Shown: one piece after another, positions 28,370 to 40,508 of the stretch
How positions within the stretch are numbered: the stretch's first letter is position 1
Layout: the number at the start of each line of letters is the position of its first letter
DNA from: Kosmotoga olearia TBF 19.5.1
Lineage (GTDB): Bacteria; Thermotogota; Thermotogae; Petrotogales; Kosmotogaceae
Assembly: GCF_000023325.1 (NCBI RefSeq)
Contig: NC_012785.1
Coordinates: 186,001-250,000 of the forward strand
DNA: 64,000 nt
Direction: 5' to 3'
Notes under the pieces: model-generated
The model's database searches: none
Seen by the model: the letters and a program-made list of their open reading frames with translations, nothing else
Told to the model about the DNA's origin: nothing
Position numbers and translations under genes: made by a program

Positions 28370-29419
28370 CTAATTCGCCAGCAATATCCCGGAAACTTCA
28401 GAGCGAAAGAGCTCATCTAAAGACTCAACCAACACAATTTTCATGAGTTCTCTTAGATTTAGTTCCGGAGCACTGGCCCTTTCGAAAATCACTTCCATTC
28501 CTTCTTCTTTTGCTCTATTCAAAACACATTTTTTATGCCCGGTGAAAAACTGCTTCGTTCCTTCATCCACCTTAAGTATAATTTTATCACCCCGTCTTTT
28601 TTTTAAAACCCTCAGTATTTCCAGCGCCACCCAATTCTTAACCAATTCCCCCATCGCAGGATGGTACGGGCCGGCTACGACATTGTTCACTTCATCACCG
28701 TAAAGACAGATACCTATCCTATTTATCTTCACACCACCCAGGCTAATAATCACGTACATTTTCCACAGTATATTTAACGCCTCTCCCAGATCCTGAGGCT
28801 TGTACTTCCCTTCGTGATACATGCTTTCTAACGTGCTGTTCTTAAGGACAACGGTGGGATGAATACGACAGGTCGAAGCCTTCAACTTTACGACCTCTAC
28901 CGCGGATCTGATATTCTTTTCCTCGCTATCCCCTGGCAAACCTGTCATAAGATGTATCCCGAAAGGAATTTTCGCCTCTTTCAGAAGTTCACAGGCAGTA
29001 TATATCTCCTTAACCCCGTGAGGCCGGTTGGCAAGCCTCAGGACCTCCTCATCGAAGGATTGCGCACCAATTTCGACAAGGGAGATCGGATAATCCGATA
29101 GAATCTCCACCTTACGTTGGGTTATCTCCTCTGGAGAGGTGGAAAAACGGATAGCTTTTGCCTTTCCGGATTTTATTATCTCCATCGCTAAATCCAGATA
29201 ATCATGCATGAGCCATTCAGGCAAGCCTGTGAAAGTCCCACCGTAAAAAGCGAGCTCCACGTTCTCCCTGTCAGCGAAAAACGCAAGATATCTATCAACC
29301 TCGTTAAAAATCTCATCCTTTGTCGGAATCCTTCCGAGTCCTGTAGCTGAATATTCATTACAGAAAACACAGCGCCGTTTACATCCGGCATGAGGAAGAA
29401 AAATCGGTATGATGTTCAT
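28370..29419 (-). CDS. Radical SAM protein, Elp3-like core
   Basis: 349 residues. The cluster motif is CKRRCVFC (CX3CX2C, about 12-19), with AFYGGTFTGLP (about 60) and GIHLMTGLPGDSEE, as in the Elp3/MiaB-like radical SAM group. No acetyltransferase domain is present, so this is not a full Elp3; the substrate is unknown. The frame stays open for 70 codons upstream, but these run through a non-coding palindrome array. I start at ATG 29419, only 6 nt after a TATAAT box and with no ribosome binding site, implying a leaderless mRNA. First gene of radical SAM-smc-ogt. Confidence 0.88.
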   Translation of the reverse strand: MNIIPIFLPHAGCKRRCVFCNEYSATGLGRIPTKDEIFNEVDRYLAFFADRENVELAFYGGTFTGLPEWLMHDYLDLAMEIIKSGKAKAIRFSTSPEEITQRKVEILSDYPISLVEIGAQSFDEEVLRLANRPHGVKEIYTACELLKEAKIPFGIHLMTGLPGDSEEKNIRSAVEVVKLKASTCRIHPTVVLKNSTLESMYHEGKYKPQDLGEALNILWKMYVIISLGGVKINRIGICLYGDEVNNVVAGPYHPAMGELVKNWVALEILRVLKKRRGDKIILKVDEGTKQFFTGHKKCVLNRAKEEGMEVIFERASAPELNLRELMKIVLVESLDELFRSEVSGILLAN

Positions 29420-29425
29420 ATTGAT

Positions 29426-29431
29426 ATTATA
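29426..29431 (-). promoter_or_regulatory. -10 box of the radical SAM-smc-ogt operon
   Basis: A perfect TATAAT on the minus strand, 6 nt before ATG 29419. The expected +1 is the A of the ATG. No clear -35. Confidence 0.5.
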
Positions 29432-29459
29432 CAATGAAAGGGGATAGAGAAGTGGGAGC

Positions 29460-29577
29460 GAATCCCTTTGGGATTGGTGCGAACTCCTTCGGAGTTGTCC
29501 CGAACCACTACGTGGTTGTCTCGAACCGCTTCGCGGTTGATACGACCGGCTTTGCCGGTGATTAGCGCCTTCGGCGG
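29460..29577. repeat. Tandem 21-bp palindromic array A1
   Basis: Five full units and a partial one start exactly every 21 bp (29460, 29481, 29502, 29523, 29544, 29565). Each is a 17-bp palindrome with a 3-nt loop plus a 4-nt linker. Stems differ but remain self-complementary: ATCCC/GGGAT, ACTCC/GGAGT, ACCAC/GTGGT, ACCGC/GCGGT, CCGGC/GCCGG. The loop is TTT, TTC or TAC, always closed by C-G. Confidence 0.93.
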
Positions 29578-29591
29578 AAAGAACCAAAAGC

Positions 29592-29619
29592 GGGTATAGG
29601 GTCTGGGGTATAGGGTATA
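29592..29619. repeat. Heptamer tandem repeat (GGGTATA type)
   Basis: Four consecutive 7-bp units: GGGTATA, GGGTCTG, GGGTATA, GGGTATA. Eleven to twelve bp later comes GGGAACCGAG, as also seen near 40311. Confidence 0.9.
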
Positions 29620-29634
29620 GAGAAAACATTGGGA

Positions 29635-29761: not shown

Positions 29762-29863
29762 GGTAAGCACGCTGCGCGTGGGTAAGCCCAGCTACGCTGG
29801 GGGTTAGCCTGACTACGTCAGGGGTACGCACTCCTTCAGAGTGGGTAAAGACCGCTTCGCGGT
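29762..29863. repeat. Palindromic array A2 with GGTAAG linkers
   Basis: Five hairpin units separated by GGTAAG, GGTTAG, GGTACG or GGTAAAG. Linkers begin at 29762, 29781, 29802, 29823 and 29844, the last four exactly 21 bp apart. Stems: CACGC/GCGTG, CCCAGC/GCTGGG, CCTGAC/GTCAGG, CACTC/GAGTG, ACCGC/GCGGT. It contains an uninterrupted counterpart of the intron insertion site (GGGTAAG followed by CCC). Confidence 0.9.
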
Positions 29864-29877
29864 TGAGAAAAGCAGTC

Positions 29878-29943
29878 ATTCTGGAAATCTCTTATCCAGA
29901 ATCTGAGCTTTTTTGATGATTAGATCCTGAATCAAGTTCAGGA
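29878..29943. repeat. Dispersed inverted repeats
   Basis: ATTCTGGA...TCCAGAAT (29878-29902) and TCCTGAA-TCAAG-TTCAGGA (29925-29943). Variants recur at about 32752-32806 and 40433-40452. The rest of 29944-30067 shows no gene. Confidence 0.8.
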
Positions 29944-30067
29944 TGACAGGTTGACTAAGGAGTGAAATTATTGACACAGATAATCCAAGCATCATTCGAA
30001 TTTTGAGATAAGTTTTAACACCCAGAGTCTCAGAATCGGATCTATTATTTTATAAGAGCCGTTTTTT

Positions 30068-30630: not shown

Positions 30631-32505
30631 TTAATTACCACATATTCCGTAAAGCGTGATCCAAGGCATATCATTTACTAATTTGGGATTTGATGGGTCG
30701 GATATATCTAAGATAACCAGACCGTTATCCCAGTTAGCCACGTACGCGTAGTCTTCCGCTACCGTTACCCTATATACAAAACCATTCAAATCAAAACTAC
30801 CTATCTCCACAGGATTTGACTGATCAGATATGTCTATCATCACAAGACCGTTGTCTCCGTCTGCTATATATGCATAGTCTCCTGATACCTCTACTCCACA
30901 TGCCCAACCATTCGTGTCATAATGACCAACCAGTATGGGATTTGATGGATCGGATATATCCATCACAACCAGGCCATTTCCCCAATCGGCCACGTATGCG
31001 AAATCTCCTTCCACCGTTACTCCACATGCATAACCATCTGTATCATAATGACAAACCGGTATCGGATTTGACGGATCAGATATATCCATCACCACCAGAC
31101 TGCTCATATCCGCTACATACGCGTAGTCTCCCGCTACTGTTACTCCATTTGCCCAACCATCCGTGTCATAATGACCAATTTGGACAGGATTTGTCGGTTC
31201 GGATATGCCTATCACTACAAGCCCGTTATAATCGTCCGCCACGTATGCGTAATCTCCTACCACCGTTACTCCGCATGCATAACCAGCAGTGTCATAACGA
31301 CCAACCAGTATGGGATTTGATGGATCGGATATATCTATCACCACCAGACCGTTCTCCCAGTCCGCCACGTATGCGTAATCTCCTTCCACCGTTACTCCAC
31401 ATGCGTCACCAGCAGTGTCATAGTGACCTACCTTAACAGAATCAGATACGTCGATTACCACAAGACCGTTATCCCCGTCTGCCACATACGCATAGTTTCC
31501 TGATACCACTACTTCACTTGCCCACCTACCTGTGTCATAATGACCAATTTGCACTGGATTTGTCGGATCGGATATATCTATCACCACAAGGCCGTTACCA
31601 CCGTCTGCCACGTATGCGTAGTTCCCGACTACGGTTACTCCATATGCTTCATCAGCTGTGTCATAGCAGCCTACCTCTACAGGACTTGACGATTCAGATA
31701 TATCGATTACCACAAGACCGTTATCATCGTCCGCCACGTACGCATAGTCTCCTGATACCGTTACTCCATATGCACTACCATCCGTGTCATAACGACCAAC
31801 CAGTATGGGACTTGATGGATCGGATATATCTATCACCACCAGACCGTTCTCCCAGTCCGCCACGTATGCGTAATCTCCTACCACCGTTACTCCGCATGCA
31901 TAACCAACTGTGTCATAATGACCAATCTGTAAGAGATTTGTCGGATCGGATATATCTATGATAACCAGACCATTATCATTATCCGCCACATATGCGTAGT
32001 TCCCGACTACGGTTACTCCATACGCAGCACCAGCCGTGTCATAGTGGCCTACCTCCGCAGGATTTGACGGTTCAGATATATCGATTACCACAAGACCGTT
32101 ATCATTGTCCGCCACATATGCGTAGTTCCCGACTACGGTTACTCCATATGCAGCATCAGCCGTGTCATAGTGGCCTACCTCCGCAGGATTTGACGGTTCA
32201 GATATATCGATTACCACAAGACCATTATAATCGTCCGCCACGTACGCATAGCCTCCTGATACCGTTACCCCATATGCACAACCATCCGTGTCATAATAGC
32301 TAACCAGTATGGGATTTTCCGGGTCACTAACCTCAAATATTAACAACCCTTCAACTCCACCCGCGGCATATACGTACTGCTTTTCTGCTTCATCATTGCC
32401 ATCGGGATTGTTAAAACCTGGACAAGCTGTTAACAGAAACAATACCAGGGTAACTACCATCACCAACTTCCAACTTTTGAACCCTTTTCTGACTACACAA
32501 CTCAT
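30631..32505 (-). CDS. LVIVD-repeat lipoprotein (beta-propeller type)
   Basis: 624 residues. A basic start, a hydrophobic helix (about 17-26) and lipobox LLTAC predict an exported lipoprotein. The rest is about 14 tandem repeats of 42-43 residues with the pattern YAYVAD...NGLVVIDISDPSNP...GHYDT, the LVIVD repeat (PF08309), expected to form beta-propeller blades. The repeats are nearly identical also at DNA level. ATG 32505 is preceded by GGGGGATGGGG. An upstream ATG at 32595 lies before the promoter's -10 and is rejected. It is monocistronic within the repeat-rich region. Function unknown; surface display or ligand binding is an inference. Confidence 0.92.
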   Translation of the reverse strand: MSCVVRKGFKSWKLVMVVTLVLFLLTACPGFNNPDGNDEAEKQYVYAAGGVEGLLIFEVSDPENPILVSYYDTDGCAYGVTVSGGYAYVADDYNGLVVIDISEPSNPAEVGHYDTADAAYGVTVVGNYAYVADNDNGLVVIDISEPSNPAEVGHYDTAGAAYGVTVVGNYAYVADNDNGLVIIDISDPTNLLQIGHYDTVGYACGVTVVGDYAYVADWENGLVVIDISDPSSPILVGRYDTDGSAYGVTVSGDYAYVADDDNGLVVIDISESSSPVEVGCYDTADEAYGVTVVGNYAYVADGGNGLVVIDISDPTNPVQIGHYDTGRWASEVVVSGNYAYVADGDNGLVVIDVSDSVKVGHYDTAGDACGVTVEGDYAYVADWENGLVVIDISDPSNPILVGRYDTAGYACGVTVVGDYAYVADDYNGLVVIGISEPTNPVQIGHYDTDGWANGVTVAGDYAYVADMSSLVVMDISDPSNPIPVCHYDTDGYACGVTVEGDFAYVADWGNGLVVMDISDPSNPILVGHYDTNGWACGVEVSGDYAYIADGDNGLVMIDISDQSNPVEIGSFDLNGFVYRVTVAEDYAYVANWDNGLVILDISDPSNPKLVNDMPWITLYGICGN

Positions 32506-32542
32506 CGATACCCCATCCCCCTTCTTTGAAGTATAAAGTTTT

Positions 32543-32551
32543 ATTATAACA
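32543..32551 (-). promoter_or_regulatory. Promoter of the LVIVD lipoprotein gene
   Basis: TGtTATAAT on the minus strand, about 38 nt before ATG 32505; no clear -35. Confidence 0.6.
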
Positions 32552-32614
32552 TCACAAACGTTATTTTCTGTTATTAATAACACACTTGCATTCAAGATTC
32601 GATTTGTGAGCTGT

Positions 32615-32714
32615 GCGCTGCTGCGCAGTTGATACGACCGGCTGAGCCGGTGTTACGAACTCCTGTGGAGTTGATACGACCGGCTTCGCCGGTGATTAGC
32701 GCCTTCGGCGGTTC
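32615..32714. repeat. Tandem 21-bp palindromic array B
   Basis: Units start at 32615, 32636, 32657, 32678 and 32699, in exact 21-bp phase. Stems CCGGC/GCCGG (twice, with different loops TGA and TTC) and ACTCC/GGAGT with loop TGT. The tail GCGCCTTCGGCGG equals that of array A1. 32715-32876 continues with dispersed inverted repeats and further hairpins leading into the intron. Confidence 0.9.
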
Positions 32715-32876
32715 AAACCCTCAGACTTGAAAGTCTGTTCTGTCAACCTGAACTTGATTCAGGATCTCGTACTGAAAACAAGATTCTGGATAAGACACTC
32801 CAGAATGACAGTTTTTTTCAACTGCGCAGCAGTTCGCACCCCTGACGTAGTCAGGCTTACCCACAGCGTAGCAGGG

Positions 32877-33644
32877 ATCGAGTAGGAGGGGGGGATCCCC
32901 CCCGTCCTCTCACAGAACCGTGCGTACGGGCCAACGTACACGGCTCCTGGATTGAGTATCGGATTCTCCGACGATGGTAGAATACCATCATACTACCTCC
33001 GCATGGCCTTCAGAATAAGTCGCATATAACAGAATCGGTTTCTTCTTCCACACAGGCATCGGTTTTCTACCCCTTTCGAGGAATATACCCAACCCTATAA
33101 TGGATTACTTGCCTGCCCCAGCCATTTCAGACCACCGTCGGCATTTCAGCCTCCGTTACGGGCTCCTGTTATACTCGCTTTCCTTTGTGCCATTTCCTCA
33201 ATCCTTCCCCCCTTCGCAAGTAACAGACCCTTTCGGTTCCTGTTACCCCCATCGCTCAAGGCGATAGTCCCTTCTCCTTTCAGAGAGGTTCAACACTACT
33301 ACGGGTTCGTCTGCCATCCTCCTCCGCTTCACCAGTCCTTGGGTCTCCCCTTGTTCCGGCTTACCCATTTTGGGACGAGTGAGGACTTCCCCGGGTAAGA
33401 CATACAGCTTTCATCCGAATCCTGCCATCCCAACCTGTAGAGTTGGAGCTCGGGCTTCCCCATGTAAGGCAAGGTTACCCTCTCTACCGGCCAACACTGG
33501 TTCACTTTCGTTCAGTTCCGGATTTTGCCTTAGGCTTCCTTCAGATTCACCGTTACCAGTGACACCCTTGCCCTCAGCTAATGCTTATCTCGCTCCCCGC
33601 ATTCGGGACTTTCACCCTATAGTTGTATGTCATGCCGGGCACAC
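32877..33644 (-). mobile_element. ORF-less group II intron, 768 nt
   Basis: On the minus strand the 5' end is GTGTG (33644), followed by CCCGGCATG and the conserved ATAGGGTGAAAGTCCC. Domain V (32946-32915) has the AGC triad in an 8-bp stem GAGCCGTG/CACGGTTC, a 2-nt CG bulge, and an upper TACG/CGTA stem. Domain VI shows GAG-AGG pairing with CCT-A-CTC, leaving the branch A bulged, and ends CTCGAT at 32877. EBS1 (33399-33393, CTTACCC) pairs over 7 nt with the 5' exon end GGGTAAG. No reverse transcriptase or maturase is encoded, so splicing or mobility would need a protein from elsewhere. It splits a palindrome array whose uninterrupted counterpart is at about 29780. Confidence 0.9.
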
Positions 33645-33713
33645 CTTACCCACGCGCAGCGTGCTCACCAGCCGCGTAGCGGCACTCTCGGATCTCGATT
33701 CTCGGCTCTCGGT
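33645..33713. repeat. 5'-exon part of the split palindrome array, plus heptamers
   Basis: Minus-strand hairpins CACGC/GCGTG and GCCGC/GCGGC precede the intron. At 33686-33713 are four exact heptamers of the NNCGAGA type (minus strand ACCGAGA, GCCGAGA, ATCGAGA, TCCGAGA). 33714-33805 holds a short palindrome and no gene. Confidence 0.85.
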
Positions 33714-35074: not shown

Positions 35075-35235
35075 GAGACAACCACGTAGTGGTTCGGAAC
35101 AACTCCGAAGGAGTTCGCGTCCGCTGCCCTGCAGCGCACAGCGTCCGCAAGCGTCAACGTCGTGAGCCTCCTGAGCGCTGCTCACACTTCCGCCGCGTAG
35201 CGGCACTCTCGGATCTCGGTTCTCAGATTCTCGGT
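35075..35235. repeat. Palindromic array D and heptamers, minus orientation
   Basis: Two exact 21-bp units (35075-35095, 35096-35116) read on the minus strand as ACTCC/GGAGT then ACCAC/GTGGT, the same order and linkers as in array A1. Irregular hairpins continue to 35204. Heptamers of the NNCGAGA type occupy 35207-35235. The whole 34969-35281 gap holds no gene. Confidence 0.85.
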
Positions 35236-40342: not shown

Positions 40343-40426
40343 GAATCCCTTCGGGATTGTCACGAACTCCTGCGGAGTTGTTTCGAACCACTTCGTGGTT
40401 GTCTCGAACCGCTTCGCAGTTGATAA
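40343..40426. repeat. Tandem 21-bp palindromic array E
   Basis: Four units at 40343, 40364, 40385 and 40406, in exact 21-bp phase. Stem order ATCCC, ACTCC, ACCAC, ACCGC is identical to array A1. The loops are TTC, TGC, TTC and TTC, and unit 4 has one mismatch. A TCCTGAA/TTCAGGA inverted repeat follows at about 40434-40452. Confidence 0.92.
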
Positions 40427-40508
40427 GGAGAGATCCTGAATCAAGTTCAGGATGACGGGTTGTGGAGTAGAACGAAAAACCAACAACGGTTTTTCTATAC
40501 CCTGTGTA

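Follow-up and report, generated by a model that had tools for sequence, protein, structure and literature searches.

The contig NC_012785.1 of Kosmotoga olearia TBF 19.5.1 carries, within the 64,000-nucleotide stretch analysed here (the window, positions 186,001-250,000 of the contig; coordinates below are window positions), a row of short hairpins whose stems all differ and are each matched by their own complement. This raises the questions of what is kept in such a row, the fold or the bases, and what kind of element it is. An earlier note on this DNA had described six units in 21-bp phase, each a 17-bp palindrome with a 4-nt linker. We found five perfect hairpins at 29461-29559 (+), each with a 6-bp stem and a 3-nt loop, with all stems different and with centres at 29468, 29489, 29510, 29531 and 29552, that is, in exact 21-bp steps. 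Self-complementary units with differing stems in 21-bp phase are thus confirmed for five units; the repeat unit is a 15-nt hairpin (6+3+6) followed by a 6-nt linker, and the sixth unit has only a 4-bp core and lies out of phase, at 19 bp. This CGCC end unit recurs at the ends of arrays of the focal kind. The focal array, in order, consists of the following parts.

29461..29475, + strand: hairpin unit 1, AATCCC-TTT-GGGATT; its stem type has 31 perfect copies in 864 kb
29482..29496, + strand: hairpin unit 2, AACTCC-TTC-GGAGTT; the most frequent type, 38 perfect copies in 864 kb
29503..29517, + strand: hairpin unit 3, AACCAC-TAC-GTGGTT; 31 perfect copies in 864 kb
29524..29538, + strand: hairpin unit 4, AACCGC-TTC-GCGGTT; a paired variant of AACTGC
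29545..29559, + strand: hairpin unit 5, ACCGGC-TTT-GCCGGT
29566..29576, + strand: end unit, CGCC-TTC-GGCG; 4-bp core stem, 19 bp beyond unit 5

Similar arrays had been listed nearby, and those at 32615, 35075 and 40343 are indeed of the same kind. The one at 29762 belongs to a second class of stems, and the one at 33645 is real but represents only a 5′ half; the matching 3′ half of this array is found at 32820-32876, with an intron between the two. The arrays at 29461 and 40344 have the order 1-2-3-4 in common.

29768..29863, + strand: second array, with class-2 stems CACGC, CCCAGC, CCTGAC, CACTCC (one mismatch) and ACCGC
32637..32693, + strand: array ACCGGC-AACTCC-ACCGGC in 21-bp phase, then the CGCC end unit
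32820..32876, - strand: 3′ half of a class-2 array, CCCTGC-CCTGAC-AACTGC, split by the intron
32877..33644, - strand: ORF-less group II intron of 768 bp (Rfam RF02001 and RF00029), within the array between a linker and the next hairpin
33651..33683, - strand: 5′ half of the split array, GCCGC and CACGC hairpins
35080..35115, - strand: two-unit array AACTCC-AACCAC
40344..40421, + strand: four-unit array AATCCC-AACTCC-AACCAC-AACCGC/GCAGTT, with one mismatch in the last stem

The long ORF of a radical SAM gene (28370-29629, - strand) stays open across the focal array because the 21-bp unit keeps the frame; the gene likely starts at MNIIPIF near 29419, a short way downstream of a TATAAT box. Protein coding of the array itself was rejected: units of 21 bp leave frames open, yet the variable sites (linker positions 2-4 and the loop centre) hit all codon positions.

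The genome was sampled over 1.204 Mb (52%) in evenly spaced stretches, 864 kb being read first and 17 further stretches added. This sample contains 99 arrays with 319 units, which make up 0.59% of the sampled DNA. A second-order Markov control yielded 307 perfect 6-bp triloop hairpins, against 577 in 864 kb of the genome, and nearly all of the surplus belongs to one loop class, C-TNC-G, which is C-GNA-G on the other strand: C-GAA-G occurred 104 times against 4 in the control, C-GCA-G 50 against 0, and C-GTA-G 39 against 1. A chance origin of the hairpin set is excluded. The spacing is equally narrow, with 113 pairs of 6-bp triloop hairpins at 21 bp, 58 at 42 bp and 24 at 63 bp, no other spacing in the 16-69 bp range occurring more than three times; in the 1.204 Mb, all 101 pairs of perfect neighbours less than 30 bp apart lie at exactly 21 bp. 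Loop frequency follows the order GAA, GCA, GTA, GGA (131, 77, 52 and 9 in 1.204 Mb). PMC6479982, citing Yoshizawa 1997 and Hirao 1994, describes C-G-closed GNA loops as extraordinarily stable DNA minihairpins, with GAA above GTA; folding energy tables give no credit for the GNA loop, and both strands score alike in them. The linkers read GNNNNG, mostly GNNNCG, GGTAAG or GCTATG; no common tag was found in them, and the GTAG/GGAG foot of the hairpin is absent. Arrays are scarce at 1.55-2.30 Mb of the genome (6 of 57 clusters), and none occurs in the sampled stretches at 0.60-0.84 Mb.

The stem types recur across arrays in a fixed order: AATCCC, (ACCGGC), AACTCC, AACCAC, AACTGC or AACCGC, and the GCGCC end unit. 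Further classes follow the orders GCACGC-CCCAGC-CCTGAC-CACTCC and CGCTGC-CTGGGC/CTGAGC-CGTGAC-CGCAAC. The step from AACTCC to AACCAC was counted 23 times forward and never in reverse, and that from AATCCC to AACTCC 18 times and never; only one pair type among the 182 heterotypic neighbours occurs both ways, and same-type neighbours were seen once in 183, against 10.8 expected under random order. Because the stem types recur in fixed order, the arrays are copies of ordered cassettes.

We then examined middle units, not inspected beforehand, that are flanked on either side by perfect units spaced 42 bp from each other. Forty-three of 47 such central units were perfect and the other four lacked one pair, so that stems are not broken at the neutral rate, in a test that needs intact neighbours and is therefore biased to intact arrays. 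The earlier reading, by which the hairpin is what is kept and not the bases themselves, has to be amended here, since the stem sequence is also fixed per slot: the AACTCC slot between AATCCC and AACCAC showed zero stem variation in 14 unselected copies. In these copies heterozygosity was 0.62, 0.50 and 0.46 at linker positions 2, 3 and 4 and 0.46 at the loop centre; the linker ends and the loop T and C were constant. The variable linker and loop sites suggest that the AACTCC-slot copies are not all recent. Moreover, two copies of a 319-bp element in the genome are 90.9% identical, and their stems differ at 4 of 130 sites against 19 of 161 for the other sites and loop centres (Fisher p=0.008). 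Recent copies in a related genome, G002 (G000 is the genome of the window and G001-G018 are labels of related genomes), have most loop and linker bases in common, so these bases are inherited and not redrawn. A diversity-generating retroelement as the source of the variable loop and linker bases was rejected, given that recent copies inherit the bases and that conserved bases of the same kind adjoin the variable ones.

A first pair-counting alignment was circular, its rows having been chosen for perfect stems, and was replaced by one of the slot before the GCGCC end unit in three genomes, picked by the end-unit anchor alone with the focal stem unselected. It comprised 35 anchored loci, of which four were omitted because the focal unit was truncated or out of frame, and gave 23 distinct units. 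Standard pairs filled 97.1% of pair cells compared with 62.4% in shuffles, which upholds the claim that pairing is maintained. Fifty cells were changed on both sides compared with 17.3 in shuffles, a signal that partly reflects slots of different origin in one position and shows the hairpin nature of all slots more than it counts events. A double change in this slot is CATTCC/GGAATG in G002 against CGTTCC/GGAACG in G003, and half-changed stems also occur (AACCGC/GCAGTT, CTGGAC/GCCCAG). The pair-preserving changes separate slots and lineages and so are old. Compensation had been placed inside each array; because the differing stems form one set of fixed order, the compensations go back to an ancestor and were passed on to every array, and independent compensation in each array is ruled out by the conserved stem order.

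The array family is limited to the bacterial family of the window (Kosmotogaceae), mainly to two genera. A two-unit covariance model had no match in 89 of 103 Thermotogota genomes; it matched 87 times in G000, 46 in G002, 30 in G003 and 12 in G004, and at most twice in Mesotoga-type genomes. One exact class-1 pattern, scanned against 84,980 species, was found only in three Thermotogota MAG contigs. Arrays almost identical to those of G000 lie on contigs of two MAGs (G001 C111, G018 C46, JARRBB010000088.1 and JASGMR010000122.1); the array contigs in G001 and G018 probably strayed into these bins from a close relative and do not count here as evidence for a wide distribution. Conservation at the orthologous site was rejected, as no array lies beside the orthologous radical SAM gene in any of 16 relatives.

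The family appears to move as composite elements of 120-320 bp. Nine near-identical composites of about 118 bp (AGCTGC-GCACGC-ACTGGC-AACTCC-ACCAGC) were found at unrelated places in G002; G003 has five, each made of two facing arrays, and G000 has the 319-bp pair. Most composites are flanked by inverted runs of GAGA/TCTC words, which are degenerate; neither a target duplication nor an empty site could be resolved. Runs of 8-10-bp words (GAGAATCC, GAGAACCGAGA) border the arrays of G000, G002 and G003; on the opposite side the words are inverted, and their number varies from copy to copy. The dispersed copies point to copying of the arrays; a spread by plasmids or phages was dropped, as no plasmid or phage matched the arrays. 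By rough gene calls, 91 of 93 arrays lie outside predicted genes. No replication-strand bias was detected (31 against 26 clusters, with the origin placed near 1.1 Mb by cumulative skew and the strands counted by hand).

The intron that splits the array in the window belongs to a set that is tied to the arrays. A search by the 5′ end identified 11 full copies in G000, and all 11 lie exactly 6 nt after an array hairpin; since arrays make up so little of the DNA, this docking is not chance. One of the 11 is opposite in orientation to its array, and in all other readable cases the next base 3′ of the intron is the start of a hairpin. Longer copies (about 2.0 kb) carry a maturase (RT model TIGR04416, 422 bits). 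Terminator hairpins and attC sites are known insertion points of group IIC introns (PMC4424553), and insertion sequences are known to target REPs (PMC1525189); the fixed distance 3′ of a stem-loop that marks group IIC targets is seen here in every copy, the assignment to class C itself being putative. G002 and G003 have arrays without such introns, and hence the intron is a user and not the maker of the arrays. In the Mesotoga-type genomes G005 and G007 (loci L196-L224), introns 87-89% identical to those of G000 were found 3 nt downstream of a CGTC-type REP hairpin in 17 of the 18 copies read. We thus have a group II intron that docks in this genome at a single repeat family, and relatives of it in sister genomes that use another hairpin repeat, which bears on the target choice of such introns.

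How the arrays relate to known repeats was then considered. They resemble BIMEs and REPs in being short extragenic hairpins of high copy number, with several types and short, defined linkers in ordered mosaics that serve as targets of mobile elements (PMC1525189). They differ in that units are all head-to-tail and not alternating, only whole arrays facing each other at times, and in the triloop, the strict 21-bp step, about a dozen ordered stem types and the missing GTAG/GGAG tag. CGTC-3 REPs have been reported for K. olearia and M. prima, with a 9-bp stem and a 5-nt loop, mostly as inverted dimers with negligible head-to-tail dimers, CGTC REPs in general having stems of 8-9 bp and loops of 4-5 nt (PMC3733652); the arrays, in contrast, have a 6-bp stem and a 3-nt loop and lack the CGTC tag. 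Hairpins of the ATCCTGAATCAAGTTCAGGAT-GAC type (ATCCTGAATCAAGTTCAGGATGAC) adjoin arrays at 29924-29944, 32747-32763 and 40433-40453, and we read these as the CGTC-3 REPs of K. olearia (PMC3733652). Integron attC arrays and CALINs, which are group IIC hairpin targets, are likewise rows of hairpins with varied stems and introns beside the stem (PMC4424553), but here the units are of 21 bp and conserved in sequence by slot, and no cassettes or integrase came to notice. The composites recall MITE- or REPIN-like elements in size and inverted ends, with the difference that the ends are degenerate GAGA words, target duplications were not resolved and no partner transposase was found. No Rfam family matched the arrays at the gathering score (best sub-threshold E about 1), and no T run follows the units, which, with arrays also lying between divergent genes, does not fit intrinsic terminators. 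The statement that no named element has this design therefore holds for Rfam and for the literature searched, which was chiefly open-access, so that an earlier description may exist. Taken together, the arrays appear to be an extragenic palindrome family in a form not found described; the tests for REPs, CGTC REPs and BIMEs (tag, orientation, transposase) fail in part.

We consider it fairly probable that the focal array is a copy of a dispersed, non-autonomous, BIME/REP-like extragenic hairpin cassette of novel architecture, confined to Kosmotoga-type bacteria and acting as DNA. Such a cassette would consist of head-to-tail hairpins with a 6-bp stem and a C-GNA-G loop (on the strand opposite to the one given) in 21-bp steps, equal to two turns of B-DNA, and whole cassettes, often two facing arrays between inverted GAGA/TCTC runs, would be copied to new intergenic sites. 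The ordered near-identical copies at different places show this cassette copying. An ancestral 21-bp unit may have been duplicated, its slots then diverging through changes on both sides of pairs. Adjacent stems, if cross-paired, typically have two mismatches of six, and unlike neighbours would not easily cross-pair, slip or recombine, each folding by itself. Each slot would then be held by constraint on pairing and sequence, acting through mobility or binding, or by selection among mobile copies. The hairpins would form and act at the DNA level, to which the loop chemistry, the lack of a clear strand bias and the exclusive docking of the intron all point. Against this reading, the stem sequence is conserved within slots beyond the needs of a structure-only role, and the arrays may have a cellular role, for example as a protein-binding scaffold.

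If the arrays were instead transcribed, with the hairpins acting in RNA at mRNA ends, in stability, in protein binding or as small RNA, the 21-nt modules would suit such a role, and the + strand RNA does fold well locally; in co-directional gaps, 19 of 30 region-strand counts have TNC on the coding strand. However, this 19:11 ratio is not significant, and array regions are divergent in 12 cases, in line with background, alongside 25 co-directional and 11 convergent ones. An RNA hairpin would tolerate G.U, yet half-changed pairs among the distinct inner stems of three genomes favour G.T on neither strand (12 A.C against 11 G.T on the TNC strand). With an RNA folding energy for the focal array of only z=-1.6 on the other strand against z=-3.6 for the DNA fold, and without an Rfam match, we regard an RNA-level element as unlikely. 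A dimeric nucleoid protein or regulator binding each 15-bp palindrome as duplex on one helix face is an explanation to which we give similarly little weight: two-fold symmetric sites two helical turns apart, the free central base, the flanking G on both sides and the sequence conservation per slot would fit it, but the loop T and C are conserved although asymmetric and unneeded in a symmetric duplex site, about 20 stem sequences would demand as many specificities, and arrays were not found at orthologous promoters.

Upkeep by mutation alone, in which one arm is rewritten from the other by template switching or quasipalindrome correction, requires no selection for structure. The earlier note had allowed for a novel palindrome-making process, for which there is no need, as template switching, which may have acted on these arrays, is already known to create or restore perfect stems (PMC8794818). 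The very stable GNA loops would aid fold-back, and the paired changes between slots and lineages (CATTCC/CGTTCC in the slot preceding the end unit; AACTCC varied to AACTCT or AACTCA) are of the kind it would leave. But the process keeps symmetry and not sequence, so that old same-slot copies should show paired changes and intact arrays show none, and it leaves the 21-bp step, the common loop and the conserved order unexplained; we judge it improbable as the main cause. True REP/RAYT elements, mobilised by the genome's Y1 (HUH) tyrosine transposase, are a very improbable account. Two Y1 genes, 95% identical over 839 bp (L045 1177-1905 and L046 1177-1887, near 1,355,579 and 1,341,980 of G000), have array sequence just downstream, and their best model is REP_Tyr_transpos, albeit under the cut-off (68 against 80 bits). 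Neither copy is flanked by arrays as a RAYT gene is by its own repeats: the 5′ end has instead a GGGACAGACTCC-type (GGGACAG-type) motif, which resembles the GGGGWSAS termini known from TIR-associated transposases (PMC3733652), and the Y1 genes look like members of that group. The arrays have no GTAG tag, and the occurrence of Y1 does not track array number from genome to genome, since G004 (83% complete) has arrays and no Y1 match and several Mesotoga-type genomes have Y1 with at most two array matches. Y1 as the mover of the arrays is thus not supported, and no transposase tied to them was found.

Returning to the dispersed DNA cassette, a stronger version may be put forward tentatively, although we doubt it: the arrays could be a new extragenic class of ordered orthogonal hairpins with a conserved stem per slot, a shared super-stable C-GNA-G loop and a selected helical phase, folding independently on one DNA face as a scaffold for a protein or a mobilising enzyme. 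The ordered unlike stems suggest a design rule, namely that neighbours must not cross-pair, which we did not find described for REPs or BIMEs. The arrays offer a large natural hairpin set that allows copy-by-copy comparison of stem, loop, linker and spacing, and with them one can test directly whether palindromes are kept perfect by selection or by a copying process. Between the arrays, the window also contains a 654-aa ORF (30631-32595, - strand) with about 13 repeats of 126 bp (LVVIDISDPSNP...), which reads as a beta-propeller-like repeat protein.
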